A stretch of 64,000 nucleotides of DNA, from NCBI GenBank assembly GCA_902577425.1, contig CACGZD010000006.1:1-64000 (forward strand). Direction: 5' to 3'. The DNA comes from an uncultured Alphaproteobacteria bacterium. Lineage in GTDB: Bacteria > Pseudomonadota > Alphaproteobacteria > HIMB59 > GCA-002718135. Numbering within the stretch: the stretch's first letter is position 1; the number at the start of each line of letters is the position of its first letter. Position numbers and translations under genes: made by a program. The notes under the pieces are model-generated. The model was given only the letters and a program-made list of their open reading frames with translations, ran no database searches and was not told the DNA's origin. Positions 1-13,149 of this stretch are shown one piece after another.

Positions 1-1275
1 AATGATATTCATATTAAATCCCAGCTTGGTAGATACCGTATGCGTGGTATGGCATTGATGAAGAAAATTCCTCATTGGGATGATCTTACTTTTTTACCAG
101 GTACTCTAACTAGATTTGTTATCGAAGGATATAGAGAGAAGTGCGAAACTAAAACTGTAATAGGTCCAAATTGTAAAAATCCAATTAAATTAGATATACC
201 AATCTATATTACTAGTATGAGTTTTGGTGCACTTTCATATGAAGCAAAAACAGCACTTGCTCGAGGCGCAACAATGGCCGGTAGTGCAACATGCTCTGGT
301 GAAGGTGGCATGATACCTGATGAAAGACGTTATTCACAATTATGGTATTATCAATGTATACAATCAAGGTATGGATTTAATCCTCATCATGCACAACTAG
401 CTGATGGCATTGAAGTTTTTATTGGACAAGGTCAAAAAGTTGGTATGGGAGGGCATTTAATGGGTCAAAAGGTTACTGATCAAGTTGCTGAAATGAGATC
501 TCTTCCTGCTGGTATAGATCAAAGATCTCCAGCACGACATCCTGATTGGCTAGGTCCTGATGATTTAGCTTTAAAAGTTGAAGAATTAAGAGAACTTACT
601 GACAATCAAGTTCCTATACAATTAAAATTAGGCGCAGCAAAAGTTTATGATGATGTGCGTATGGCTGCAAAGTGTAATCCAGATTCAATTTACTTAGATT
701 GTATGGAAGGATCAACTGGTGCAGGCCCACACATTGCTGCTGCAAATACAGGTATCCCAGGAATAGCTGCAGTAAGAGAAGCTAGAAGGGCTTTAGATGA
801 TGTGGGAAAAACTGGTGAAGTAACTTTAGTTTTTGCTGGAGGAATTAGGGATGGAGCAGATATGGCTAAAGCTCTTGCTCTTGGAGCAGACGCTATAGCA
901 GTTGGAACAGGAGCATTAGTTGCATTAAATTGTAACAAAGATATACCTGAAGCTGATTTTGAAAAAGAACTAGGAGTAGAAGCTGGTCTTTGCTATCATT
1001 GTCATACTGGTAGATGTCCTGTTGGTGTTGCTACACAAGATCCAAAGTTAAGAAAACGTTTAAATCCAGATGATGCAGCTCTTAGAGTTTATAATTATTT
1101 GCATTCCATGACTCTAGAAGCTCAATTATTAGCTAGAGCATGTGGAAAAACAAATATCCATTCGCTTGAACCTGAAGACCTAGCTGCATTAACTATGGAA
1201 GCATCTGCTTTAGCAAAAGTTCCTTTAGCAGGAACAGAGTACACTGTAGGTGTAGATAACTTCCATTCAATTTAG
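1..1275 (+). CDS. glxD: Glutamate synthase-like FMN domain protein (GlxD/MgsC type), 5'-partial
   Basis: The reading frame is open to the left edge, so the gene starts outside the window. 424 residues remain of a family of about 440. It corresponds to the FMN-binding barrel of the glutamate synthase large subunit as a separate protein, as in glxD of rhizobial glxABCD and mgsC of N-methylglutamate synthase. Visible family marks are the IPHWDDLTFLPGTLTRF start region, SGEGGM near residue 100 (window numbering), a glycine-rich FMN/phosphate loop (FAGGIRDGADMAKALALGADA) and a cysteine cluster near residue 335 (CYHCHTGRCPVG) fitting the 3Fe-4S site. It probably transfers amide nitrogen or methylamine onto 2-oxoglutarate together with upstream subunits not in the window. 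GlxD and MgsC cannot be separated from sequence alone. A type III glutamine synthetase nearby fits either route. Confidence 0.9.
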   Translation, partial: NDIHIKSQLGRYRMRGMALMKKIPHWDDLTFLPGTLTRFVIEGYREKCETKTVIGPNCKNPIKLDIPIYITSMSFGALSYEAKTALARGATMAGSATCSGEGGMIPDERRYSQLWYYQCIQSRYGFNPHHAQLADGIEVFIGQGQKVGMGGHLMGQKVTDQVAEMRSLPAGIDQRSPARHPDWLGPDDLALKVEELRELTDNQVPIQLKLGAAKVYDDVRMAAKCNPDSIYLDCMEGSTGAGPHIAAANTGIPGIAAVREARRALDDVGKTGEVTLVFAGGIRDGADMAKALALGADAIAVGTGALVALNCNKDIPEADFEKELGVEAGLCYHCHTGRCPVGVATQDPKLRKRLNPDDAALRVYNYLHSMTLEAQLLARACGKTNIHSLEPEDLAALTMEASALAKVPLAGTEYTVGVDNFHSI

Positions 1276-1285
1276 GAGAATACTG

Positions 1286-1684
1286 ATGGCTAAAAAAAAG
1301 AAAAATAAAACTAGCTCAAAGAAAAAAGACTCAGGTATTAAAACAGCTAGAGAAAAAATGATTGGTCAGCATATAGGTTATAGATATGATGTAAATCTTC
1401 TACCAGACTATACTAGACTTACACCTTTTTTAAAAAAATATATAGAAACTATGGGTTGGGATGATCTTAATTGGCTTGAAGATGTTCATATGGGTTATGA
1501 AAATGATAAACCTGCAGTTTTTGATAGAAATATAAATGGATGGGTGACTACTCCAAAAAATCTTAAGCTACCCAAAGATCAACAAGATAGAGATATGATA
1601 GCAAGAGAATTATTGATAAAATTTCAAATGTCTCCAAATCATCCTTTAGTTGTATTAAAGAAAGCTTATAAGAAATTTGATTAA
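1286..1684 (+). CDS. Small lysine-rich protein of unknown function following glxD
   Basis: 132 residues with a basic N-terminus (about ten lysines in the first sixteen residues) followed by an ordered-looking region rich in aromatic residues (YRYDVNLLPDYTRLTPFL, WDDLNWLEDVHMGYEN). I do not recognise the family. The start is the ATG 10 bases after the glxD stop. Its ribosome-binding site AGGAGAA overlaps the end of glxD, so the two are almost certainly one transcript. Its 3' end overlaps the convergent gene at 1681 by 4 bases. No signal peptide or membrane segment is visible, so it should be cytoplasmic. The basic tail could bind nucleic acid or an acidic partner, but that is a guess. Confidence 0.75.
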   Translation: MAKKKKNKTSSKKKDSGIKTAREKMIGQHIGYRYDVNLLPDYTRLTPFLKKYIETMGWDDLNWLEDVHMGYENDKPAVFDRNINGWVTTPKNLKLPKDQQDRDMIARELLIKFQMSPNHPLVVLKKAYKKFD

Positions 1685-2226
1685 GATATTTGACTTAATT
1701 GATTTTTTAATGGACTAAAAAAAAGTATTTCAATATTTTCATTTAGAGCAGGATTGAAGAAAAAGTTGTGCCAAAAAGTATATTGCCATTTTGGATCATT
1801 TTTTTTAAGTTTTTTTATAGATATAGGAAATAGAAAACCAGTCTCATTTTCATAAAATTGAACATTTGATTTTTTTAAATTTAGAAGTTTTTTAAAAAGT
1901 AATGAATCTTTATCAAAAGTTGCAGTGAAAGAACCTTCAAAATTATCAGGAGTATTATAATATTCAGAAGAGAGAAATTTTACAGCTTTATCAAATCTAA
2001 TTTCTGGTTCATGTGTTTGTTTAATCATAAATTCAAACATTTTTGCAGTATTTAAGCAGTCTTTTTCAATTAATACAGATCGGACATCACAAACCTCTTT
2101 ATTTGTTTTAATATTGATTATTTTTGCAGTAGTTCCTTCAGAAGGTTTTCCACTAAACATTCTGAAATTTCGTTGTCTTAGGCTACATTGCCAAGTAACA
2201 AAGTCACTCCATCCAACTTTAGGCAT
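1681..2226 (-). CDS. Unknown protein downstream of type III glutamine synthetase
   Basis: 181 residues from the ATG at 2226. One codon upstream is a TTG that is less likely to be used. It lies 9 bases after the stop of the glutamine synthetase on the same strand, so they are probably co-transcribed. I do not recognise the family. The N-terminus (PKVGWSDFVTWQCSLRQRNF) is rich in Trp, Cys and Arg, and the middle is a mixed alpha/beta pattern without membrane segments. The position suggests a role linked to the amide or methylamide synthetase, for example a regulatory partner, but nothing in the sequence shows this. Confidence 0.7.
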   Translation of the reverse strand: MPKVGWSDFVTWQCSLRQRNFRMFSGKPSEGTTAKIINIKTNKEVCDVRSVLIEKDCLNTAKMFEFMIKQTHEPEIRFDKAVKFLSSEYYNTPDNFEGSFTATFDKDSLLFKKLLNLKKSNVQFYENETGFLFPISIKKLKKNDPKWQYTFWHNFFFNPALNENIEILFFSPLKNQLSQIS

Positions 2227-2235
2227 CAATAATTT

Positions 2236-3594
2236 TTAACAATCTAATGTATTGTCTTTTTCCCACTGGGTAATAATATTCGATTTAATAGATTTTTTTG
2301 CCCCTTTGAATCCAATTTTTTTCTCATTGGATGCGTTATATTTTTTTATTTCTCTTTTTTTCAAAGTTATATAAGAATTAATTACTTCTTTACCAAAAGC
2401 AGCTTTCAATACTTTACTATTTTCTAAATTAGTTAGCGCTTGTTGTAAATTTAAGGGCAGTTTTTTTGCTCCTTTAACTTTATGAGCTTCCTCATACATA
2501 TTAACATTAACTGGTTTACCTGGATTTCTTTTTTTCTCAATACCATCAATTCCTGCAGCTAGTATTCCAGCTTGTAATAAGTACGGATTAGTTGCACCAT
2601 CCATTAAACGCAATTCAAATCTTCCAGATCCAGGAACACGTATCATATGAGTCCGGTTATTTCCAGAATAGGTGATAGTATTTGGCGACCATGTTGCTCC
2701 TGAAGCAGTTACTGGAGCATTTATTCTTTTGTAACTATTAATAGTTGGATTAAACCAGGCTGTTAAAGCTTCAGCAGAATGCATAATACCACCCATAAAA
2801 TTATATGCTGTTTTTGATAAACCTAAATTATCTTTTTTATCTAAAAATAAATTTTTATTTTTTTTATTCCAAATTGATAAATGAGCATGACACCCATTCC
2901 CAGTTTTGTTAATAAAAGGTTTAGGCATAAATGTAGCTCTTAATCCTGATTTTTCAGCTAATGTCCTAACCATGAATTTAAAAAAAACATGACGGTCAGC
3001 AGTTTGAAGACAATCTGAAAAATCCCAATTCATTTCAAATTGACCATTAGCATCTTCATGATCATTTTGGTAAGGTCCCCATCCTAGCATAATCATACAA
3101 TCACAAATTCCTTTAATTAAATCATATTGTCTCATTAAAGCAGATTGATCATAACAAGGTTTATCTGCAATATCATTTTGATCGGCTATAGTATCACCAG
3201 AAGGAGATATTAAAAAATACTCACATTCAACACCGCTTTTAAGATACATATTCTTTTTAGCTAGTTTATTAATTTGATTTCTTAACATCACTCTTGGAGA
3301 TGCTTCTACAGGTTTTCCGTTCATCCATAGATCAGCTGCTAACCAAGCTACATCCATTTGCCAAGGAAGTTGAATCATACTTTTAGGATCTGGAATTGCT
3401 GCCATGTCAGGATCAGAAGGAGACATATCTAAATAAGTAGAGAAACCAGCAAAGCCCGCACCATCTTTTTGCATTTCTTTTATAGATTGAGCAGGAACTA
3501 ATTTGGATCTTAGTACTCCAAAAAAGTCTACATAACTTATCAAAAAGTATTTTATTTTTTTCTTTTTTGCAATCTCCGCTAGATTTATAGCCAT
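2236..3594 (-). CDS. glnT: Type III glutamine synthetase family (GlnT / gamma-glutamylmethylamide synthetase-like)
   Basis: 452 residues, the usual length for the GlnT/GmaS group. It joins ammonia or methylamine to glutamate using ATP. The GS catalytic fold is clear: Glu ligands in GVECEYFLIS and DHEDANGQFEMNW, the His loop TGNGCHAHLSIWN, and the Arg-rich substrate strand GNNRTHMIRVPGSGRFELR. The start ATG has a good AAGGAG site 7 bases upstream. With the glxD/mgsC-type gene nearby, two readings fit: ammonium assimilation into glutamine (GlnT), or the first step of methylamine use (GmaS) through gamma-glutamylmethylamide and N-methylglutamate. Sequence reading alone does not decide. No adenylylation-loop assignment is attempted. 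Confidence 0.9.
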   Translation of the reverse strand: MAINLAEIAKKKKIKYFLISYVDFFGVLRSKLVPAQSIKEMQKDGAGFAGFSTYLDMSPSDPDMAAIPDPKSMIQLPWQMDVAWLAADLWMNGKPVEASPRVMLRNQINKLAKKNMYLKSGVECEYFLISPSGDTIADQNDIADKPCYDQSALMRQYDLIKGICDCMIMLGWGPYQNDHEDANGQFEMNWDFSDCLQTADRHVFFKFMVRTLAEKSGLRATFMPKPFINKTGNGCHAHLSIWNKKNKNLFLDKKDNLGLSKTAYNFMGGIMHSAEALTAWFNPTINSYKRINAPVTASGATWSPNTITYSGNNRTHMIRVPGSGRFELRLMDGATNPYLLQAGILAAGIDGIEKKRNPGKPVNVNMYEEAHKVKGAKKLPLNLQQALTNLENSKVLKAAFGKEVINSYITLKKREIKKYNASNEKKIGFKGAKKSIKSNIITQWEKDNTLDC

Positions 3595-3712
3595 TTTAAC
3601 TCCTTAAATATTTCAATAACAGATTAATAAACCTCAAATAATAATTAATAAATACATTTTTTATAAATCATTTAATAAGTAATCGATAATACTTTTTACT
3701 ATAAATATCCAA

Positions 3713-4561
3713 ATGAAAGCAATTATATTGAATCTTATAGCGTGGGGAACATTGCCCATAATGGACGGAATGGCAAAATATTTAAGTACCCAGATGCATT
3801 TTGTAGAAGTTGTATGGGCAAGATATTTTTTTATGGTTGTATTAAGTCTTCCAATCACTTTTTTCTTTTTTAGAAGATACCTTACGTGGCCACAAAATTT
3901 TTTACTTCAAATGTCTAGAAGTATTTTTTTATTTTTATCAACTATTTGTTTTTTTTATGCTATCTCTGTCATTTCTCTAGCAAAATCTCTTACATTGGCT
4001 TTTGTTGCTCCAATCTTTGTTACAATTTTATCTGCTTTGTTATTAAAAGAAAAAGTTGGGATTCATCGATGGGGTGCAGTATTTGTAGGATTTATTGGAG
4101 CACTTATTATCATTCAACCAGGTATTATTAAAATTAACCTAGCATCAATAGCTAGTCTTGGAGCAGGAATATCTTATGCATTTTATGTAATTTCAACCAG
4201 AAAACTTTCATCTTTTGACAACCCCTATCTTACATTAATATTTACTGGTGTATTTGGCGCTATAATAATAAGTATTATTGTTCCATATTATTGGACAACG
4301 CCAAATATTAATCAATGGCTATTAATGATTAGTCTAGCGGCAGTTGGAATGTTCGCTCATTTTTGTTTAATCTTATCATTAAACTATGCTGAAGCATCTA
4401 AGCTTGCTCCTTTAGCTTACTTTGAAATAGTTAATAATATTTTAATTGGTTATTATTTCTTTGGCGACTTTCCAAATAAATGGTTATGGTTAGGTCTATT
4501 TTTTATTGTATCAAGTGGAATTTATATTTCAATAAGAGAAGTGAAAAAATTAAATTTATAA
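3713..4561 (+). CDS. EamA/DMT-family transporter
   Basis: 282 residues with about ten hydrophobic segments in two similar halves, the drug/metabolite transporter layout. Family features are the first helix with PIMDGMAKYL, VEVVWARYF in the second helix and an acidic-basic loop LLKEKVGIHRWGAV after the first half. It is probably an inner-membrane exporter or permease for small metabolites. The substrate cannot be read from sequence. Only 3 bases separate it from a second EamA gene, so the pair may be co-expressed or form a heteromer. It is divergent from the glutamine synthetase across a 118-base spacer. No clear ribosome-binding site precedes the ATG, so a slightly different start is possible. 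Confidence 0.88.
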   Translation: MKAIILNLIAWGTLPIMDGMAKYLSTQMHFVEVVWARYFFMVVLSLPITFFFFRRYLTWPQNFLLQMSRSIFLFLSTICFFYAISVISLAKSLTLAFVAPIFVTILSALLLKEKVGIHRWGAVFVGFIGALIIIQPGIIKINLASIASLGAGISYAFYVISTRKLSSFDNPYLTLIFTGVFGAIIISIIVPYYWTTPNINQWLLMISLAAVGMFAHFCLILSLNYAEASKLAPLAYFEIVNNILIGYYFFGDFPNKWLWLGLFFIVSSGIYISIREVKKLNL

Positions 4562-4564
4562 AAT

Positions 4565-5461
4565 ATGAATTTAACAAATAAACAAAAAGGGTTAGCATTA
4601 TCTTTAATAGGTGTATTATTAATAACTCCTGACTCATTATTTATTCGTTTAATTGATCTTGGCGCTTGGGAGTTAGTTTTTTATAGAGGCCTAGTTCCTT
4701 GTATATGTTTGTTAATTGTATTAAGTTTTTATTATAGATCACAATTCATAAAATCTTTTTTAGTATTAGGCATCCCTGGCTTATTTTATGCAATATTAAT
4801 TGCTTTAGGAAGTACTACATTTGTTATTTCAATTGAGAATACATATGTTGCTAATACTTTAATTATGATTGCATTACTTCCTTTTGCAACCGCTATTTTA
4901 AGTTCAATTTTTTTAAAGGAACATCCAAGTAAAAGAATGTGGCTAACTATAATAGCTTGTTTTACTGTAGTTTTATTTATATTTTATGACTCTTATCAGG
5001 GTAATCGTTTATATGGTGATTTTTTTGGCTTACTAACAGCTGTAATGGTTGGTGGTAGTGCGGTAGTTGTTCGTTATGGCAAAAACTTTAATTTTTTGCC
5101 TGCACTTTTGTTATCTAAGTTTTTTATTATGTTGATAGCTATAATGTTTATGAAAAACTTCCCTGAAACATTATTTGTAGATCAGAAAAATTTGTATTTA
5201 ATAATTGCGATGGGAGTATTTGCAGTTTTTATTCCCTTAGCTATGATTACTCTAGCTCCTAGATATATACCAGCTTATGAAGTAGAAATCTTTTTTGTTC
5301 TAGAAACTATTTTAGGCCCTGTTTGGGTATGGCTCGTTATTCAAGAACAACCAACAAACAAAACAATTATTGGAGGAGTTTTTATAATTATCATTATATT
5401 TATTCACACATTTCTGGAGCTTAGAGAAAACAAAAAAGTAGAACATAATTCATTAAAATAA
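4565..5461 (+). CDS. EamA/DMT-family transporter
   Basis: 298 residues with about ten membrane segments and the two-repeat EamA pattern (LGAWELVFYRGL in helix 2, IFLKEHPSKRMWLT at the end of the first repeat, PAYEVEIFFVLETILGPVWVWLV in the second). Its ATG is 3 bases after the stop of the previous EamA gene. Tandem EamA genes are common in marine alphaproteobacteria, where they are assigned to amino-acid, nucleoside or osmolyte export. The substrate here is unknown. The C-terminus is a short charged tail typical of a cytoplasmic end. Confidence 0.88.
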   Translation: MNLTNKQKGLALSLIGVLLITPDSLFIRLIDLGAWELVFYRGLVPCICLLIVLSFYYRSQFIKSFLVLGIPGLFYAILIALGSTTFVISIENTYVANTLIMIALLPFATAILSSIFLKEHPSKRMWLTIIACFTVVLFIFYDSYQGNRLYGDFFGLLTAVMVGGSAVVVRYGKNFNFLPALLLSKFFIMLIAIMFMKNFPETLFVDQKNLYLIIAMGVFAVFIPLAMITLAPRYIPAYEVEIFFVLETILGPVWVWLVIQEQPTNKTIIGGVFIIIIIFIHTFLELRENKKVEHNSLK

Positions 5462-5524
5462 TTAAAAATCGCAGAATTCTAGGAAAAAATATACCCATTT
5501 TTCAAAAAAAAAATGAGTTAGAGG

Positions 5525-5553
5525 TTGAATCTCCCCGTAAAAGATATGATAAA
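5525..5553 (+). promoter_or_regulatory. Predicted sigma-70 promoter of the amtB transcript
   Basis: TTGAAT at 5525-5530 and GATAAA at 5548-5553 are separated by exactly 17 bases. The expected start of transcription, near 5560, falls just before the riboswitch at 5567. That positional fit supports the call more than the hexamers alone. No sigma-54 GG-N10-GC element was seen. Confidence 0.5.
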
Positions 5554-5566
5554 GCGATATATTAAT

Positions 5567-5621
5567 CGTTCATCTCATAAGTTGTATGAGACGGAAGTAG
5601 GCTAGGAGACCGAAGGAACGC
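5567..5621 (+). ncRNA. glnA-class glutamine riboswitch in the amtB leader
   Basis: A three-way junction is visible. P1 pairs CGTTC (5567-5571) with GAACG (5616-5620). P2 pairs TCTCATA (5573-5579) with TATGAGA (5585-5591). A short third arm closes GG 5600-5601 with CC 5610-5611. The conserved joining strings I know for glnA RNAs, ACGGAAGTAGG (5591-5601) and CGAAGGAACGC (5611-5621), are both present. glnA-class RNAs bind L-glutamine and control nitrogen genes in cyanobacteria and marine bacteria, and an ammonium transporter is an expected target. A competing hairpin, AAGGAA 5613-5618 with TTCCTT 5623-5628, would break P1 and may be part of the switch. Confidence 0.9.
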
Positions 5622-5702
5622 ATTCCTTTATGTTTTCAAATTACTTTCATTACTTTTTATAGATTAACGATTGTAAAGATAAACTCAAAAAGAGGGGGTC
5701 TA

Positions 5703-6983
5703 ATGACGTTAGAAGAATTAAATGTCTTTGTCACCACACAAGCTAATGTAGGTATGGAAGCTTATTATTGGTGGTGTACAGGACTGATGATTATTATTCA
5801 CGTTGGGTTCTTAATGTATGAAGTAGGGGCAACAAGAATGAAAAATGCCGTTTCTTCAGGTGTGAAAAATTTATTAGCATTTGCATTTATGATTCCAACA
5901 TTTTGGCTATTTGGCTGGTGGATCTATCTAGCATTTCCTGGAGGATTTGTTCCTATAGATTTAGAAGGATATGGAGTTCCATGGAATGTTTCAATGGGAC
6001 CTATGCTAAGTGATCAAGCGACTGGTGTATTTTGGGCAGCTTTTACGCTGTTTGCATGTACAACAGCTTCAATTTTTTCTGGAGCTGTAATAGAAAGAAT
6101 TAGAATAAGTGCTTTTGTATTTTTAGCAGTTATTCTTGGGTCAGTAGTATGGATCTTAGCTGCTTCTTGGGGATGGCATCCTGATGGATGGCTAGTAACA
6201 GGATTTGGTTTTCATGATGTAGCAGCTGCAGGTTGTGTACACACAGTTGCAGGATTATTTGCATTTGGTGTATTACTAAACCTTGGTCCAAGAGTAGGAA
6301 AATATAATGATGATGGATCGGCAAACGACTTAGCAGGTCATAGCTTAGTACTATCATTTGTTGGCTTATTAACTCTAATTGTAGGATTCTTTGGATTCTT
6401 AGGAGCTTGTTTAATTTGGGCAGGATCTGATTTTGGAGGTTGGATAAATATTTATGGTGCTCCAGCTACATTATCATCTTTTGCTTTTAATACTTTAATG
6501 GGTCTAGCAGGTGGTATGATAGGTGCCTTCTGGTGGAGTAAAGGTAATCCATTTTGGATGATGTCAGGAGGATTAGCAGGTATATTTATATGTGCTGGTG
6601 GTCTTGATATTTGGTACCCTGGATTTGCTTTTATTCTTGGAACAATTGCTGGTTGTGTAATTATTCCTGCTAATAATTGGCTTCACAATACTTTTAAAAT
6701 TGATGACTGTGTAGGTGCAGTATCAATTCACGGTGTGTGTGGTATCCTAGGTATGTTGGCTGTAGGTCTCTTTGCTTCTGGTTTTCCAGCTGCAGGAGAT
6801 ATACCTCCATCAAACTTAATGGGACAAATTGTTGGTATCATCACAATGGCGTTAACTGGATTTGTACCTGGCTATGTTATTTCTTTAATTATGAAAATGG
6901 CTGGCTGGTTACGTGTTCCAGATCACGTTCAAGAAGCGGGTATTGACAAAACAGAGCTTGAGCTTCAAGCTTATAACCAGTAA
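5703..6983 (+). CDS. amtB: Ammonium transporter
   Basis: 426 residues with eleven predicted membrane helices and no separate signal peptide. It carries ammonium or ammonia across the inner membrane. The two pore histidines lie in AGCVHTVAGL and VSIHGVCGILG. The Phe-gate region resembles CTTASIFSGAVIERIR. The ATG has a very strong AGAGGGGG ribosome-binding site 5 bases upstream. The leader carries a glutamine riboswitch, so high glutamine is expected to turn expression down. A 57-residue membrane protein follows after 20 bases, then a strong terminator. No glnK gene follows within the window, unlike many amtB operons. Confidence 0.95.
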   Translation: MTLEELNVFVTTQANVGMEAYYWWCTGLMIIIHVGFLMYEVGATRMKNAVSSGVKNLLAFAFMIPTFWLFGWWIYLAFPGGFVPIDLEGYGVPWNVSMGPMLSDQATGVFWAAFTLFACTTASIFSGAVIERIRISAFVFLAVILGSVVWILAASWGWHPDGWLVTGFGFHDVAAAGCVHTVAGLFAFGVLLNLGPRVGKYNDDGSANDLAGHSLVLSFVGLLTLIVGFFGFLGACLIWAGSDFGGWINIYGAPATLSSFAFNTLMGLAGGMIGAFWWSKGNPFWMMSGGLAGIFICAGGLDIWYPGFAFILGTIAGCVIIPANNWLHNTFKIDDCVGAVSIHGVCGILGMLAVGLFASGFPAAGDIPPSNLMGQIVGIITMALTGFVPGYVISLIMKMAGWLRVPDHVQEAGIDKTELELQAYNQ

Positions 6984-7003
6984 CAAAGAGAAAGGAACAT
7001 ATT

Positions 7004-7177
7004 ATGAATACATGGCCTGGACCAGAAAATAGTTGGGAAGGTGTAGATGCTTATTTTACATGGGCTTCCTCATCAGGTATGCTTGTTCTATTCACTTTAG
7101 TTACAGCTGCAATATGCTTAGCCGTGATTATAGCTGCTGCTAGACATGAGTCAGAAGTAGCAGATAGCAACAAGTAA
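7004..7177 (+). CDS. 57-residue single-span membrane protein co-transcribed with amtB
   Basis: The frame runs from ATG 7004 to TAA 7177 with a ribosome-binding site (GAGAAAGGAAC) just upstream. The protein starts MNTWPGPENSWEGVDAYF, has one hydrophobic helix at about residues 26-46 and ends in a short charged tail (RHESEVADSNK). It sits 20 bases after amtB and before the shared terminator at 7193, so it belongs to the riboswitch-controlled unit. I do not know a named family. It could be an accessory subunit or stabiliser of AmtB, which is inference from position only. Confidence 0.8.
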   Translation: MNTWPGPENSWEGVDAYFTWASSSGMLVLFTLVTAAICLAVIIAAARHESEVADSNK

Positions 7178-7192
7178 ACAAATTTTATAAAC

Positions 7193-7227
7193 AAAAAGGG
7201 CAGTATTATTACTGCCCTTTTTTTATT
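7193..7227 (+). terminator. Rho-independent terminator of the amtB operon
   Basis: GGGCAGTA (7198-7205) pairs with TACTGCCC (7210-7217) around loop TTAT. The stem is extended by five A-T pairs and followed by a run of seven T (7218-7224). This is a strong terminator closing the riboswitch-amtB-small protein transcript. Confidence 0.93.
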
Positions 7228-7246
7228 TAAAAATGTATTATAAGTT

Positions 7247-7414
7247 ATGAATTATAAAGTAGTAGAAAACATTCTTAGTAATGTTTATCAATTTGCTTTT
7301 GATAATAAAATTATAGTAGCTGTTTTATGGATTGCTGTTATGTTTTTCTTACTTAGAAAATTATCCAAAAGAGATAATGAATTTTATTTAAAAGATTTTT
7401 TTAAAAAAAAATAA
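7247..7414 (+). CDS. Possible 55-residue single-span membrane protein
   Basis: The frame runs from ATG 7247 to TAA 7414. It has an amphipathic N-terminus, one hydrophobic helix (IIVAVLWIAVMFFLL, about residues 22-36) and a basic C-terminus. No good ribosome-binding site precedes it and it lies directly after the amtB terminator, so it would need its own promoter. Membrane-like composition and a clean frame favour a real gene. The AT-rich background makes chance possible. Confidence 0.45.
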   Translation: MNYKVVENILSNVYQFAFDNKIIVAVLWIAVMFFLLRKLSKRDNEFYLKDFFKKK

Positions 7415-7420
7415 TTTAAA

Positions 7421-7669
7421 TTATTTTTTGGGCACAGTTATTAAAGAGATAAAAATTAAAAAAACAAAACTTATAATTCCACAAAAAACTGAACCAAAAA
7501 AGATAAAAGATAGGGTTAGCATAATATTATCACTATTTAATTTATTAAAAAAGAAAGGACTTTGTAAAATTTGATCAATAAAACATATAAAAGAAAGAAC
7601 CATGAGACCTGTCATAAATCCTCTTTTATAAAATTTAATCCATTTATCTTTTATTAGTGTAATATTCAT
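7421..7669 (-). CDS. Small two-span membrane protein, unknown
   Basis: 82 residues with a basic N-terminus (IKDKWIKFYKRGF) and two hydrophobic segments at about 17-35 and 48-78. It lies 15 bases upstream-side of the MetX-like gene's 3' end on the same strand, so it could be the last gene of that transcript. No family recognised. Short length and AT-rich sequence keep confidence modest. Confidence 0.5.
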   Translation of the reverse strand: MNITLIKDKWIKFYKRGFMTGLMVLSFICFIDQILQSPFFFNKLNSDNIMLTLSFIFFGSVFCGIISFVFLIFISLITVPKK

Positions 7670-7684
7670 AAATATAATTCATCA

Positions 7685-8686
7685 TTATTTTAATAAATCG
7701 TTAATAGCATTATCTAGTGCCACCTCAAAATTTTTATTATTTCCAGGATTAGCAACACAATGTCCCCATATAGAATCGAATTTTCTTAATTCAGCATTTT
7801 GCATATGTTTTACTTCAAATTCATTATCTTCTGGTGGAAAATAAAGATCATGACTACAAGGCATTAAAATAGCTTTTGCTTTAATTCTATTCAATGCTTC
7901 AGTAAAATTATTATTATAAATTGGACCTGTGCTAATATCATTTTGTTGCCAAGTTAGAAGTTTTGTTAGAAGATTATTAGCATCCCAGTTATTGACATGA
8001 TCATTTTCCCAATCAATTAATAATTCTTCAACGTTTTTAAATCCTAACTCTTTGTATTTTTTTTCTCTAAAAAAAGACTGTGAAAATGCCCAACCAGCAT
8101 AAACTCTTCCAAAAGCTTTTAATCCTTCAATAGGTGGTGAAGAATAATTACCGTTGTTCCATATTGGATCAGCGCAAAGAGCTGCTTTTACTCCTTCTAA
8201 AAAAACAAAGTTATGTTCTGAAGTTTTGGCAGAAGCACAAAAAGGCAAAATAGCTTCAACCATATCAGGGTATTGAGCAGCCCATTGATAAGATTGACAA
8301 CCTGCCATGGACCAACCAGTAACTAAAGCAATTTTTTCTATATTAAAATTTTTAGTTAATAATTCATGTTGGCATTTAATATTATCCCATAAAGTTATTG
8401 TTGGAAATTTGGATCCTCTTTGTTTTTTGTCAGCATTACTTGGAGATGTAGAAAGTCCGTTTCCAAATAAATTTATTGATATAATAAAATGTTTTTCAGG
8501 GTTAATAGCTCTATTCGCACCAAAGAAACCTTCATTTCTTTTATGAGTACCTGTATAAAAAGTAGGTAATAGAATAACGTTATTTTTATCTGAATTTAAA
8601 GCTCCATATGTTTTGTATGCAAGCTTAGCTGAGAGTAAGGTTTCTCCAGATAAGAGCTCTATATCTCCTAATTCATAATTATTCAT
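7685..8686 (-). CDS. MetX-like alpha/beta hydrolase (homoserine O-acetyltransferase superfamily)
   Basis: 333 residues with the alpha/beta hydrolase fold of the homoserine acetyltransferase group: start LSAKLAYKTYGALN, the oxyanion region NVILLPTFYTGTH, the nucleophile elbow GWSMAGCQSYQWA (Ser near 148), an Asp in CSHDLYFPPEDN and a His in SIWGHCVANPG. It is shorter than true MetX (about 370-400 residues) and its elbow differs from the usual GGSxGGM. It is therefore probably not a methionine-biosynthesis enzyme but a related esterase or acyltransferase. It lies 28 bases downstream of the PuuA-like glutamine synthetase and is likely in the same operon, suggesting a role in amine or amide breakdown. 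Confidence 0.8.
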   Translation of the reverse strand: MNNYELGDIELLSGETLLSAKLAYKTYGALNSDKNNVILLPTFYTGTHKRNEGFFGANRAINPEKHFIISINLFGNGLSTSPSNADKKQRGSKFPTITLWDNIKCQHELLTKNFNIEKIALVTGWSMAGCQSYQWAAQYPDMVEAILPFCASAKTSEHNFVFLEGVKAALCADPIWNNGNYSSPPIEGLKAFGRVYAGWAFSQSFFREKKYKELGFKNVEELLIDWENDHVNNWDANNLLTKLLTWQQNDISTGPIYNNNFTEALNRIKAKAILMPCSHDLYFPPEDNEFEVKHMQNAELRKFDSIWGHCVANPGNNKNFEVALDNAINDLLK

Positions 8687-8714
8687 TTAATAAACTAACA
8701 ATATATTTATTCTA

Positions 8715-10130
8715 TTAGTATAATCGTAAATATTCCTTTACTTCCCAGTCTGTAACTGCCTGATGATATCTTTCCCATTCATCATTTTTATAATTTACAT
8801 ATGAATTTAACATAACTTTTCCTAAAACTTTTTCAGCAATTTTATTTTTTTGTAAAGCTTCAATTGCTTGAAGTAAATTTCTAGGAAGGCGTCTTATTCC
8901 AAGCTTCTTCATTTCTTGATTACTTAGAGCATAAAGATCAAAATCAGAAGGCTTACCAGGATCAATTTTATTTTGAATACCTTCTACAGCTGCTGAAATT
9001 GTCATACCTAATGCTAGATATACATTCATTGTTAAATCTGCTGCACGATTTTCTATACAATATCTATTTTGTGGTAATCTAAACTGAGCTGAACGGTTAT
9101 TATGGCCATAAGTTATATTTGTTGGAGCCCAAGTATGTACACCTCCTTCAAATCCTCCTACAGTTGGAACTAGTCCATTATAAGAATTAACAGTTGGACA
9201 TGTAATAGCTGTAATTGCTTCTGAGTTAGCTAGTAATCCTCCAACAGCATGCATTGATTCTTGAGACCATTTATTGTTATCCTTAAAAATATTTGTATTA
9301 TTTTTAATATCATTAAGAGAAAAATTTATATGACCTCCTGATCGCCAATCACCAATAGTTGGCTTTGGCATAAATGTTACAAACATATCATGTTTTTTTG
9401 CCACTTCTTTTAAAAGAATCTTTAAAAACACTAATCTATCAGCCATTTGAAGTAAATCTGTGTAATGGAAATCTAATTCAAATTGAGAATAAGCTCCTTC
9501 TGCAACAACATCATGAAGGTCCCACCCTAACTCTCCTAAAATATCGATCATTTCTTTTAGGAAATGCATTGAGTCTAGAGAATATTCAACATCATAACCA
9601 AATGCTTGTCTTCTTGGACGAATGCCATGTGGAGGATCATTATCTATAGCTTTTACAGGCTCTCCTTTTTCATTATATTTCATTACAATGAATTCAGGTT
9701 CAATTCCTGCAAAACCTGAATATCCCTCCTCTTGTTTTTCCTGAATAATTCTTTTTAAAGCTTGTCTTGGACATACATTATAGGGAGCTCCTTCCCAAAA
9801 TAAATCTGCAAAAATTATTGCAGTTGTTTTGTCCCAAGGACAAACATAAACTGCATTAAGATCTGGAAGCATAATTTGATCAGGATCAGCTGGAGAAAGT
9901 TCAGGAACAAATGATACTGAATGAACGGCAAATTGAGGACCTTTTCCTATGCATAGCTCCTCAAAATCACTCATGGGAACAGGTTTGGTTTTGGCAATGC
10001 CATGCATATCAATCCAACTAGATAAAACATACTTGACCCCAGCATCTTCAAGTTTTCTTTTTGTTGAGGCTATATTCGGTTTATTTCTTTCTATGGCTTC
10101 CTCTAAACTTTCATAATAAATTTTACTCAT
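8715..10130 (-). CDS. Glutamine synthetase-like gamma-glutamyl-amine ligase (PuuA/IpuC group)
   Basis: 471 residues of the glutamine synthetase superfamily but distinct from the first GS in this window. GS ligand strands are GIEPEFIVM and AEGAYSQFELDFHYTD, followed by SGGHINFSL and GHNNRSAQFRLPQNRYCIENRAAD. Such paralogues (PuuA for putrescine, IpuC for isopropylamine, aniline ligases) couple glutamate to an organic amine as the entry step of amine catabolism. The neighbours (MetX-like hydrolase, cupin, glyoxalase, Rieske oxygenase) agree with a degradation operon. The amine cannot be named from sequence. The preceding cupin gene ends 29 bases upstream. Confidence 0.85.
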   Translation of the reverse strand: MSKIYYESLEEAIERNKPNIASTKRKLEDAGVKYVLSSWIDMHGIAKTKPVPMSDFEELCIGKGPQFAVHSVSFVPELSPADPDQIMLPDLNAVYVCPWDKTTAIIFADLFWEGAPYNVCPRQALKRIIQEKQEEGYSGFAGIEPEFIVMKYNEKGEPVKAIDNDPPHGIRPRRQAFGYDVEYSLDSMHFLKEMIDILGELGWDLHDVVAEGAYSQFELDFHYTDLLQMADRLVFLKILLKEVAKKHDMFVTFMPKPTIGDWRSGGHINFSLNDIKNNTNIFKDNNKWSQESMHAVGGLLANSEAITAITCPTVNSYNGLVPTVGGFEGGVHTWAPTNITYGHNNRSAQFRLPQNRYCIENRAADLTMNVYLALGMTISAAVEGIQNKIDPGKPSDFDLYALSNQEMKKLGIRRLPRNLLQAIEALQKNKIAEKVLGKVMLNSYVNYKNDEWERYHQAVTDWEVKEYLRLY

Positions 10131-10159
10131 GTATAATTTTCTCCTATGTTTATACTTTT

Positions 10160-10558
10160 TTAATCTAAACCCATATCTTCAGGGTCAATTCCTGGCACAT
10201 GAGTTAATCCAGCTTTTTTCTTCCAGTCATGCGGATATGCAGCATAAAAAATTACGCAAGTTTCATCACATTCATAAGCTATATGATTATCTCTTGGTAC
10301 ATATAAAACATCACCAGGATTACAAATATAAGACTCTCCATCACAAATTAGTCTAAAAGTTCCTTTCATGCAGTAAATTATTTCATCACAAGTTAGATCC
10401 CAAGGTACAGAAATATTGTTTAGAAAATTTAAACCTCCACACATTGTGTCACTTACTTTTGATGTGACAAAAGGTTTGATATAAGTTTGACCAGGTTCTA
10501 AAGTATGTAATCGGTGCTCTATATCTTTAAATTTATATAATTGAGGTTTCTTTCCCAT
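10160..10558 (-). CDS. Cupin protein, EutQ-like
   Basis: 132 residues with a single cupin barrel. The first cupin motif is around CDEIIYCMKGTFRLICDGE and the second around PGDVLYVPRDNHIAYECD. Its EutQ-like character (an acetate kinase-like cupin of ethanolamine metabolism) rests on general resemblance. The metal ligands are not the classic HxH set, so metal binding is uncertain. It sits between the glyoxalase and the PuuA-like ligase on the same strand with spacers of 19 and 29 bases. It may act as an isomerase, a sensor or a small-molecule binder for the same amine route. Confidence 0.72.
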   Translation of the reverse strand: MGKKPQLYKFKDIEHRLHTLEPGQTYIKPFVTSKVSDTMCGGLNFLNNISVPWDLTCDEIIYCMKGTFRLICDGESYICNPGDVLYVPRDNHIAYECDETCVIFYAAYPHDWKKKAGLTHVPGIDPEDMGLD

Positions 10559-10577
10559 TTATTTATTCCTTTCTTCA

Positions 10578-10997
10578 TTATTGTTGTATCTTTTCGTTTA
10601 ACTCTACTTTGTAGCCATCTGGATCTTCACAAAAAGCTATAACTCTTGTTCCGTGTTTCATTGGTCCTGGTGGACGTGTTATTTTTATTCCAGCAGCTGA
10701 TAAATCTTCACAAGCTTTATAAACATCTGGTGTTTCTATACAAATATGACCCCATCCATTACCTTTGTCGTAAATATCTTTTTGATCCCAGTTATGAGTT
10801 AGTTCTAAAGTTGGAAATTCAGTTTCAGGTCCATAACCAATAAATGTATTCGTAAATTTACCTTCTGGATAATCTGTTTTACGAAGAACTGACATTCCCA
10901 ATATTTCACAATAAAATTTTAGAGATTGATCAAGATTTTGAACACGCATCATAGTATGAGCTAATCTGAATCCCTGATTTATTTTTTTCTGTTCCAT
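10578..10997 (-). CDS. gloA: Glyoxalase I (lactoylglutathione lyase)
   Basis: 139 residues with two beta-alpha-beta-beta-beta modules of the vicinal oxygen chelate fold. The four expected metal ligands are present: His14 (RLAHTMMRV), Glu65 (PTLELTHNW), His84 (GWGHICIE) and Glu132 (YKVELNE). It converts the hemithioacetal of methylglyoxal and glutathione to S-lactoylglutathione in the cytoplasm. Its place inside an amine-degradation-like operon may reflect removal of reactive aldehydes made there. The start ATG is in a favourable position; the purine stretch before it is weak as a ribosome-binding site. Confidence 0.9.
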   Translation of the reverse strand: MEQKKINQGFRLAHTMMRVQNLDQSLKFYCEILGMSVLRKTDYPEGKFTNTFIGYGPETEFPTLELTHNWDQKDIYDKGNGWGHICIETPDVYKACEDLSAAGIKITRPPGPMKHGTRVIAFCEDPDGYKVELNEKIQQ

Positions 10998-11011
10998 TTT
11001 TTTTTGATTTT

Positions 11012-12076
11012 TTAAGATTTATTTATGGACTTAATCACAATTTTTTGGAATGCGCGAACACTATTTTCCCAATGCGGGGATAATAATCCACCATTTTTAG
11101 CAGCTGATGATAATCTACCTATTTGTAATCTTTCACATATTTCATGATCTTCTTTATGAACATCCCACCATAAATTTCTTAGTTTATTGATCTCTTTTTT
11201 CTTTAATTGCATATCTTCCGTCAAATAAATAACACGCTTTTGATGAGTGATACCGGGCTCAACAGGAATATTTAAATGTACACCTATCTGTCCAGGGTAA
11301 TAAGTTCCAATTATGAAATTTGGAAACAGTGAAAGATACTTTGAACTTACAGATAAGCTATCAGCAGAGGTACTTTCTTCATTTAAATCTACGGCACTTC
11401 CATAACATCTTCCATCAACTATTGTGTAATGATCTTTAAGTGGCTGACTTGTAGTTGTTTTATGAACAAACTGCACATGATAAGGCTCTATATAATTTTC
11501 AATTAGAAATTTCCAATTTGTATTAATGTTTCCAAAATCCAAAGTAGCTACTGGATTAATTTTTTTTAAATTTATATTTTGGAGATGTTTAAATAAAGGA
11601 GAAGCATATTTTTCAAATGGTAAAGCTTTATTATTTAAATTTATAAAAATCCAATCATGCCAAATCTTTACTCGCACAGATTTTAATCCATTTTTTTTTC
11701 TAAGAAAACCTTTAGGTTGATGGTTATTAGTTCCACCAAAGTGAGGAGAAGCTACCAAATTCCCCTTAAGATCATAAGACCATGCATGATAAGGGCAGCT
11801 AATAATTTGACCAACATTTTTTGCTTTATCTACTAATTTTAAACACCGATGACTACAAACATTATGAAAGGCATTAATTTTATTTTCAGATTCTTTAATT
11901 AAAAGAATAGGTTGTTCAGCTACATTTATTGGAAGTACATCTCCTTTATTTTTTAATTCATGCTTAAAACCTACAAAAACCCAATTTTTTTCAAATATAT
12001 TTTTGCTTTCTTTAGCCCAAAAATTTTTATCAGTATAAGCTTTTGAAGGTAGTCCTTTAAATATATTATTAGACAT
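11012..12076 (-). CDS. Rieske-type ring/amine-hydroxylating oxygenase, alpha subunit
   Basis: 354 residues from the ATG at 12076. An upstream in-frame codon at 12133 adds a hydrophobic tail that does not fit the family, while GGAG precedes 12076. The N-terminal Rieske 2Fe-2S domain has CSHRCL and, 17 residues later, CPYHAW. The catalytic domain has the mononuclear iron motif ENYIEPYHVQFVHKTT. This group includes glycine betaine, carnitine and stachydrine monooxygenases. The substrate here is unknown, but a quaternary or secondary amine fits the neighbours. A reductase partner was not found in the window. It is divergent from the ureohydrolase gene. Confidence 0.87.
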   Translation of the reverse strand: MSNNIFKGLPSKAYTDKNFWAKESKNIFEKNWVFVGFKHELKNKGDVLPINVAEQPILLIKESENKINAFHNVCSHRCLKLVDKAKNVGQIISCPYHAWSYDLKGNLVASPHFGGTNNHQPKGFLRKKNGLKSVRVKIWHDWIFINLNNKALPFEKYASPLFKHLQNINLKKINPVATLDFGNINTNWKFLIENYIEPYHVQFVHKTTTSQPLKDHYTIVDGRCYGSAVDLNEESTSADSLSVSSKYLSLFPNFIIGTYYPGQIGVHLNIPVEPGITHQKRVIYLTEDMQLKKKEINKLRNLWWDVHKEDHEICERLQIGRLSSAAKNGGLLSPHWENSVRAFQKIVIKSINKS

Positions 12077-12189
12077 AATCTTTATATGCTCCAAAAAAAG
12101 AATAAGAAAATCATATCCACAAAACCTTATCACAAACTCATTTAAAATAAACTATAGTGTTTATAAATTCGTGATATAAGAAATTTAAT

Positions 12190-13149
12190 ATGACAGATAA
12201 TACTTATGACAAAGGTAGATTGAACTTACCATTCGTAGGCATATGCACATTTGGAAAATACCCTTATGTAGAAGATTGGGATAATATTAATGCAGATGTT
12301 GCAGTTATGGGTGCACCTTTTGATTTTGGAAGTCAATTTCGCACAGGATCAAGAATGGGACCAAGAGCAATAAGAGAGGCGTCTACATTGTTTTCATTTG
12401 GACATGCAGGAGCATATGATTTTGAAGACGATATAACTTATTTACCATCAAAAACTACTAAAATTGTAGATATAGGTGATGCAGATATTATTCATACAGA
12501 TACGTTAAAAAGTCATGCAAACATAAAATTTGGAGTTGAAAAAATTTTAGACTCAAAAGCTATTCCAATTGTTATGGGAGGCGATCATTCTATAAATATT
12601 CCTTGTATAGATGCTTTTGAAAAAGAAGATCCTTTTCATATTATTCAAATTGACGCTCATTTAGATTTTGTTGATCAAAGACATGGAGTAAAATATGGGC
12701 ATGGCAACCCCATGAGGAGAGCTTCTGAAAAGAAATATGTTTCAGGAATGACTCAGATAGGTATTAGAAATGTTTCATCTACTTCTAAAGATGGGTACAT
12801 AGATGCTAGATCACGAGGTTCTTCAATTTTTTCTGTCAGGCACCTTCGTCGTCTTGGTATAGAAAAAATACTAGAATCTATTCCTAAGAACAAAAGATAT
12901 TATATTACAATCGATATAGATGCTTTTGATCCTTCAATTGCAGCTGGCACAGGTACTCCTAGTCATGGTGGATTTTACTATTATGAAGTTCTTGAATTAC
13001 TTGATGCTATAATTAAACAAGGTGAAGTTATAGGCATGGACTTAGTTGAAGTTGCCCCAGATTATGATCCAACTTTTTCCACATCAACACTCGCAGCTCA
13101 ATTGTTAATGAATGCTATTGGAAGAATTTTATATTATAAAAATTTGTAG
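12190..13149 (+). CDS. Ureohydrolase (agmatinase/guanidinobutyrase family)
   Basis: 319 residues, normal for the SpeB-like family. The binuclear manganese site is intact: GGDHS (His133), DAHLDF and DIDAFDPS. The enzyme removes urea from a guanidino compound such as agmatine, 4-guanidinobutyrate or guanidine; residues around the metal do not let me choose. It starts a plus-strand unit with the TauD/BBOX-like gene 17 bases downstream and is divergent from the Rieske oxygenase. The gene set points to use of amines or guanidines as nitrogen sources. Confidence 0.9.
   Translation: MTDNTYDKGRLNLPFVGICTFGKYPYVEDWDNINADVAVMGAPFDFGSQFRTGSRMGPRAIREASTLFSFGHAGAYDFEDDITYLPSKTTKIVDIGDADIIHTDTLKSHANIKFGVEKILDSKAIPIVMGGDHSINIPCIDAFEKEDPFHIIQIDAHLDFVDQRHGVKYGHGNPMRRASEKKYVSGMTQIGIRNVSSTSKDGYIDARSRGSSIFSVRHLRRLGIEKILESIPKNKRYYITIDIDAFDPSIAAGTGTPSHGGFYYYEVLELLDAIIKQGEVIGMDLVEVAPDYDPTFSTSTLAAQLLMNAIGRILYYKNL

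Follow-up and report, generated by a model that had tools for sequence, protein, structure and literature searches.

Can the leader of an ammonium transporter gene sense glutamine as RNA, and, if so, how would binding reach the gene, and which protein-based sensor might the RNA replace? The window in which this locus lies is the whole stretch of DNA analysed, bases 1-64000 of contig C6 (64,000 nucleotides), from an alphaproteobacterial genome of 1.52 Mb in 31 contigs that is 90% complete (handle G000). The order to which the genome belongs is represented by 60 genomes, its own included, of which 36 fall in family f1 and 24 in family f2; many of them are 67-96% complete. These two families of one streamlined marine order are presumably families of the order HIMB59, which comprises HIMB59 and GCA002718135 (PMC10734472, excerpt).

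The original prediction placed a glutamine riboswitch of the glnA class before amtB in an alphaproteobacterium, citing the pairing and the conserved junction strings of glnA RNAs, and proposed a covariance search with the Rfam glutamine model as a check. That search gave a significant match to RF01739 (Glutamine, glnA leader), scoring 57.8 bits where the gathering score is 35, with E = 3.9e-10 for the entire window on both strands and 7.4e-12 for a 1.2-kb stretch. The model is covered completely (positions 1-53), and a whole-genome covariance search recovered the aptamer as well. The three-way junction of P1, P2 and P3 is complete, with the invariant CGGAAGUA and the GAAG/GAACG strand (Table 1); every conserved core position is preserved, and the cmscan alignment marks one non-standard pair, in P3. 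Two covariance matches exceed threshold in the whole window, a tRNA and RF01739, the latter being its sole above-threshold riboswitch match. The Downstream-peptide motif (Glutamine-II, RF01704) has a similar core and is also a glutamine aptamer, but in a permissive search of 5000-6200 it reached only 14.5 bits against a cut-off of 33, which rules out membership of that family; the remaining families in the same search all fell under their own cut-offs. The aptamer ends 78 nt before the start of amtB, on the same strand and in a nitrogen-gene context. The leader holds no second aptamer, and the site is single. By sequence and context the element is a glnA-class glutamine riboswitch, predicted to bind L-glutamine. 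Class, host, junction strings and the gene served all agree with the original prediction, while the direction of control we can only infer.

Both the class and this kind of target gene are already known, and the window site is a further example. Targets of glnA RNAs include PII, glutamine synthetase, glutamate synthase and ammonium transporters, the RNAs are of marine origin, and tandem arrangements are on record (PMC2864571, excerpt). The window element resembles the described class in its junction structure, conserved core and gene context. It differs in its alphaproteobacterial host, where the 2010 table gives 'Cyanobacteria, marine', and in a leader-long alternative fold that covers the entire aptamer.

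Table 1. Features of the amtB leader and adjoining genes (positions in the window).
Feature	Position	Strand	Basis
TTGAAT, possible -35 element (weak)	5525-5530	+	TTGAA(T/A) recurrence
Alternative extended hairpin (anti-aptamer fold), 41 pairs	5563-5673	+	leader MFE and shuffle test
Glutamine riboswitch aptamer, RF01739	5565-5624	+	cmscan
P1 of aptamer	5567-5571/5616-5620	+	cmscan alignment
P2 of aptamer	5573-5578/5586-5591	+	cmscan alignment
Aptamer core CGGAAGUA	5592-5599	+	cmscan alignment
P3 of aptamer	5600-5602/5609-5611	+	cmscan alignment
GAAG of aptamer	5612-5615	+	cmscan alignment
AAGGAA/UUCCUU, tip of extended hairpin	5613-5628	+	sequence; paired in MFE
UUACUUUC, partner of aptamer core in alternative fold	5641-5648	+	MFE
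AGAUUAACGAUU, partner of aptamer 5' strand	5661-5672	+	MFE
GAGGGGG, Shine-Dalgarno of amtB, 4 nt 5' of ATG	5692-5698	+	sequence
amtB, ammonium transporter, 426 aa	5703-6983	+	PF00909, E 6.7e-59
57-aa small-protein ORF immediately 3' of amtB	7004-7177	+	ORF; conserved in order-mates

The NCBIfam amt and marine-subtype models (TIGR00836 and TIGR03644) match the product of amtB only under their cut-offs, which marks it as a divergent kind of ammonium-transporter family member. The small ORF that follows matched no Pfam or NCBIfam family; of the 385 genomes of the class, 9 have it, its own genome counted. The stretch from 40 to 13149 is rich in nitrogen genes, among them those for a glutamate-synthase-like protein, an agmatinase-like protein, a type III glutamine synthetase (2236-3594) and a second GS-like protein (8715-10130).

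Window-type amtB genes, with at least 76% identity, are present in 11 f1 genomes, and six of these, the present one included, carry an intact single aptamer before the gene. In three others (G004, G005 and G007) the leaders have aptamer-like strings without the core, and in G034 and G035 none were seen by eye. The three coreless leaders (L048, L037 and L155) retain ATCGTT... strings and may be riboswitch relics. They indicate that aptamer decay occurs in family f1, so the window aptamer might itself be a functionless relic. We consider this extremely unlikely, because its core positions are intact, its score lies far above the cut-off and in five relatives the aptamer 5' of this gene is still intact.

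What faces this aptamer is a far longer structure than first proposed. In the MFE fold of the leader, pairing with the downstream leader absorbs the whole aptamer into the extended hairpin, and the two are mutually exclusive folds. UUACUUUC pairs with the aptamer core GGAAGUAG (5593-5600), and AGAUUAACGAUU complements the aptamer 5' strand AAUCGUUCAUCU (5564-5575) at all but one of its 12 positions. We counted cross pairs between aptamer and downstream region and compared them with 400 shuffles per leader, in which the downstream region was shuffled with its dinucleotides kept. The window leader forms 41 cross pairs against a shuffle mean of 17.0, and none of the 400 shuffles was as high. Excess alternative pairing was found in all six window-type leaders with an aptamer, each at p <= 0.04, the six representing three lineages and not six independent tests. 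For G000, G002, G014, G018, G022 and G026, respectively, the cross pairs number 41, 44, 34, 43, 34 and 34, and the fractions of shuffles as high are 0, 0.007, 0.040, 0, 0.040 and 0.028. The downstream sequences form three groups (g1, g6 and G018) that are barely alignable with one another. A duplex-only test gave p values of 0.005, 0.002, 0.076, 0.006, 0.118 and 0.032 in the same order and is weak for two g6 leaders (0.076 and 0.118). Between G000 and G002, 46 pairs are unchanged, 8 show one-sided pair-keeping changes, 2 are compensatory, 17 are broken in one of the two, and 2 were excluded for gaps. Without ligand the free fold beats the bound fold by 7 to 16 kcal/mol, so a switch would need kinetic control.

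The original prediction had a short AAGGAA/TTCCTT hairpin compete with P1. Its place and its overlap with P1 are exact: the arms lie at 5613-5618 and 5623-5628, across the 3' strand of P1 (5616-5620), and UAUGUUUU comes next, a layout that could suggest a small intrinsic terminator or a switch formed by this hairpin alone. Yet it is only the tip of the 41-pair fold, and three of the six leaders, the three of g6, have not kept it. Given that the MFE fold embeds the hairpin in a far longer helix, we think it very unlikely that it acts by itself. A scan of the leader found no terminator-like site, and, with the hairpin missing from the g6 leaders as well, we reject intrinsic termination there.

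We think it probable that amtB is controlled by a glutamine-I aptamer set against this leader-long anti-aptamer, the two folds being exclusive. The aptamer would fold first as the leader is transcribed. Bound L-glutamine would then hold the three-way junction and leave the downstream pyrimidine-rich strand single, while without glutamine that strand would invade and the aptamer would be absorbed into the long hairpin, which we take as the ligand-free state. Because the two folds exclude each other, glutamine would set amtB expression. A cell needs an ammonium transporter at low glutamine, and high glutamine would therefore be expected to turn the gene OFF. The final readout may lie at the translation start; alternatively, the G-poor pyrimidine-rich stretch, single in the bound state, could be a target of Rho or of an RNase. 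The proposal builds on three established observations, namely the identity of the aptamer, the context of genes in which it lies and the recurrence of the alternative complementarity, and is supported by the fact that all five aptamers of the genome precede nitrogen-assimilation genes. Counting against it, 5 of the 11 f1 genomes with a window-type amtB have no intact aptamer before that gene.

A more direct translational OFF switch can be imagined, in which the strand freed by glutamine binding sequesters the Shine-Dalgarno itself. The freed strand of the g6 relatives carries ACUUCC and their Shine-Dalgarno is GGAAGG, and partition functions constrained to the bound aptamer, compared with free ones, raise the opening cost of the stretch from Shine-Dalgarno to AUG in four of the six window-type leaders. 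The cost of opening the Shine-Dalgarno itself, however, changes by a mean of -0.04 kcal/mol in these leaders (n=6), rises in only two of them, and in the window leader falls from 4.4 to 4.0 when the aptamer is forced. The mean change is 0.07 in other amt leaders (n=39) and -0.15 in ATP-grasp leaders (n=17); in glnA leaders it is small, with a mean of 0.74 and a rise in 23 of the 26. The simplest translational readout thus finds no support: with no consistent change in the amt leaders, we reject a toggle of the Shine-Dalgarno as the main mechanism, and direct sequestration is an improbable alternative to the leader-long competition.

Nor did a promoter just before the aptamer, as originally predicted, appear in a consensus scan of 5440-5720, which found no plus-strand sigma-70-like match and one on the minus strand, a number equal to that in shuffles. 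What speaks for a promoter is TTGAA(T/A), read from the sequences about 40 nt 5' of the aptamer in all six window-type amtB leaders that have one. With no consistent change at the Shine-Dalgarno and no match to a terminator or a plus-strand promoter, we infer both the readout and its sign.

The window site belongs to a larger set. The genome has five aptamers: the single one described here and two tandem pairs, one before a second amt gene (G000:C2:56553-56687, on contig C2) and one between a PII gene and the glutamine synthetase gene glnA (G000:C6:79992-80115). The riboswitch is present in 34 of the 60 order genomes, that is, in 34/36 of f1 (all except G003 and G004) and 0/24 of f2. The 91 sites parsed in the 34 f1 genomes precede amt (47), glnA (27) or an ATP-grasp-like gene (17), classes assigned by scripted motif matching, with unfitted sites placed in amt classes by N-terminal sequence or default (one of the amt labels was given by default to a gene that a contig end interrupts). 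By architecture they comprise 41 tandems of the second amt type, 27 tandems before glnA, 17 tandems before ATP-grasp-like genes and 6 single sites of the window type, so that 85 of the 91 are tandem. Among the ATP-grasp-like sites of f1 (L087, L088 and similar loci), some leaders have an ORF of about 20 aa that overlaps the gene start.

These tandems share one design. In 61 of the 85, the GAAC of aptamer 1 and the GUUC of aptamer 2 are 20 nt apart; the spacing is 19 nt in 23 and 18 nt in one. The linker, C(A/G)UGC-(1-3 nt)-AGUUAU, is near-invariant, and aptamer 2 is followed by a 3' element, AUA(A/G)CU-(2-3 nt)-GCAUG, which by eye is present in tandem leaders and absent from the six single ones. 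Linker and element are complementary in 82/82 non-redundant tandem leaders, with at most two outer-end mismatches in two of them (88 of the 91 leaders were analysed, two having been left out since the script detected no start codon in them and one as an identical copy; none lacked the 5' strand). The internal-loop sizes on the two sides change in step (2/2 in 39, 3/3 in 26, 1/2 in 15 and 2/2 in 2), and in the 14 of 82 leaders compared with shuffles the duplex gave p values of 0.002 to 0.086. Because linker and element hardly vary, covariation neither supports nor refutes the helix, which is plausible but unproven. The same design, an 18-20 nt linker with a complementary 3' element, recurs in amt, glnA and ATP-grasp leaders (L076 and L077 being the two tandem sites of this genome), and the SAR116 loci L158 and L261 have similar linkers and elements. 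Excerpts of PMC9481103 count 157 doublets and 4 triplets among tandem glutamine riboswitches, which the two other sites of this genome resemble and from which the window site differs in being single. The table in those excerpts gives glutamine tandems multiple platforms, whereas the f1 linker, with its 18-20 nt, leaves no room for a second expression platform.

The tandem leaders also bear on the sign of control. A cyanobacterial glutamine riboswitch reportedly turns ON a glutamine synthetase inactivating factor, and glutamine could likewise turn amtB ON. Such control would fit the anti-start pairing UUUCAUA/UAUGAAA, which in 14 of 14 aligned tandem glnA leaders overlaps the linker-pairing element, and earlier experiments suggesting that genes under glnA and Downstream-peptide RNAs are downregulated by these upon nitrogen depletion (PMC2864571, excerpt). 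For amtB we doubt it: that glutamine should raise a transporter used for scavenging makes poor physiological sense, and across the six window-type leaders the bound state does not consistently make the Shine-Dalgarno more accessible. OFF at high glutamine is the sign we favour.

Elsewhere, glutamine is sensed by the GlnD/GlnE/PII cascade, which sets ammonium transport and glutamine synthetase. This protein-based system divides the two families, in what amounts to one evolutionary contrast: GlnD is found in 0/36 f1 and 24/24 f2 genomes (23 of them above the cut-off), and GlnE in 0/36 and 22/24. PII persists in 28/36 f1 genomes, one copy each, and in 23/24 f2 genomes, mostly as two copies; counted from coordinates, a PII gene lies directly 5' of the second amt gene in 20/24 f2 genomes. 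Among selected genomes, with three f1 sequences read partially, the canonical T-loop KGHTELYRGAEY occurs in 10/10 f2 proteins examined and 0/13 of f1, where the loop is non-canonical in all 13 checked and resembles GSTGGID..YDDEF.

The original prediction had RNA standing in for an NtrBC-type system. NtrC above its cut-off and RpoN are indeed found in 0/60 order genomes, the present one included, but an NtrX-like response regulator adjoining a kinase is present, below cut-off and, in this genome, cut by a contig end. Moreover, the riboswitch-free relatives also lack NtrC and RpoN, whose absence from both families therefore does not distinguish them; f1 is marked instead by missing GlnD, GlnE and a normal T-loop. 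Some NtrX-like regulators (L394 in G000:C9 and L395 in G005:C11) have a sigma-54-type AAA domain despite the absence of RpoN.

A general exclusion between GlnD and the riboswitch is refuted by the wider class set of 385 genomes. Six of these have the riboswitch, four of them outside f1 and all four in family f10, and 3/4 of the f10 riboswitch genomes also have a GlnD match. The f10 riboswitches (L065-L068) precede an ATP-grasp-type gene and not amt or glnA. We take the gene after the f10 aptamers and some f1 aptamers to be of the circularly permuted ATP-grasp type.

For f1 itself we offer a broader reading tentatively, as one that falls a little short of an even chance. The GlnD/GlnE/GlnK cascade with its standard PII T-loop would have been dismantled and replaced by a glutamine-riboswitch regulon on amt and glnA; the tandems would be true two-aptamer, one-platform devices held by the linker/3'-element helix, and at the window amtB a lone aptamer would be opposed by an anti-aptamer as long as the leader. 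The literature searched yielded no account of the lineage contrast of GlnD and GlnE with the riboswitch, of this leader or of a leader-long anti-aptamer, though an earlier report may exist.

Beyond the order, a core-pattern scan places the aptamer in cyanobacteria, SAR86, SAR116, other marine proteobacteria and viral contigs among the matches listed, and glutamine riboswitches occur in marine phages (PMC9004378, excerpt). Viral contig loci such as L282, L352, L353 and L338 have tandem glutamine aptamers with 8-11 nt linkers and, directly 3', a hairpin, CAUCUUU...AGGAGAUG, within which lies the Shine-Dalgarno of a short ORF. At L188 and L208 (SAR86 and related), three successive glutamine aptamers precede an ORF with a signal-peptide-like start.

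Our analysis shows that glnA-class RNAs occur in a family of streamlined marine alphaproteobacteria whose sister family retains the protein system. The simple amtB leader, available in six divergent versions, is material for work on the coupling between a glutamine aptamer and expression. The two families provide a natural contrast in which to ask whether an RNA regulon can substitute for GlnD/PII signalling, a question that bears on ammonium uptake by abundant ocean bacteria.
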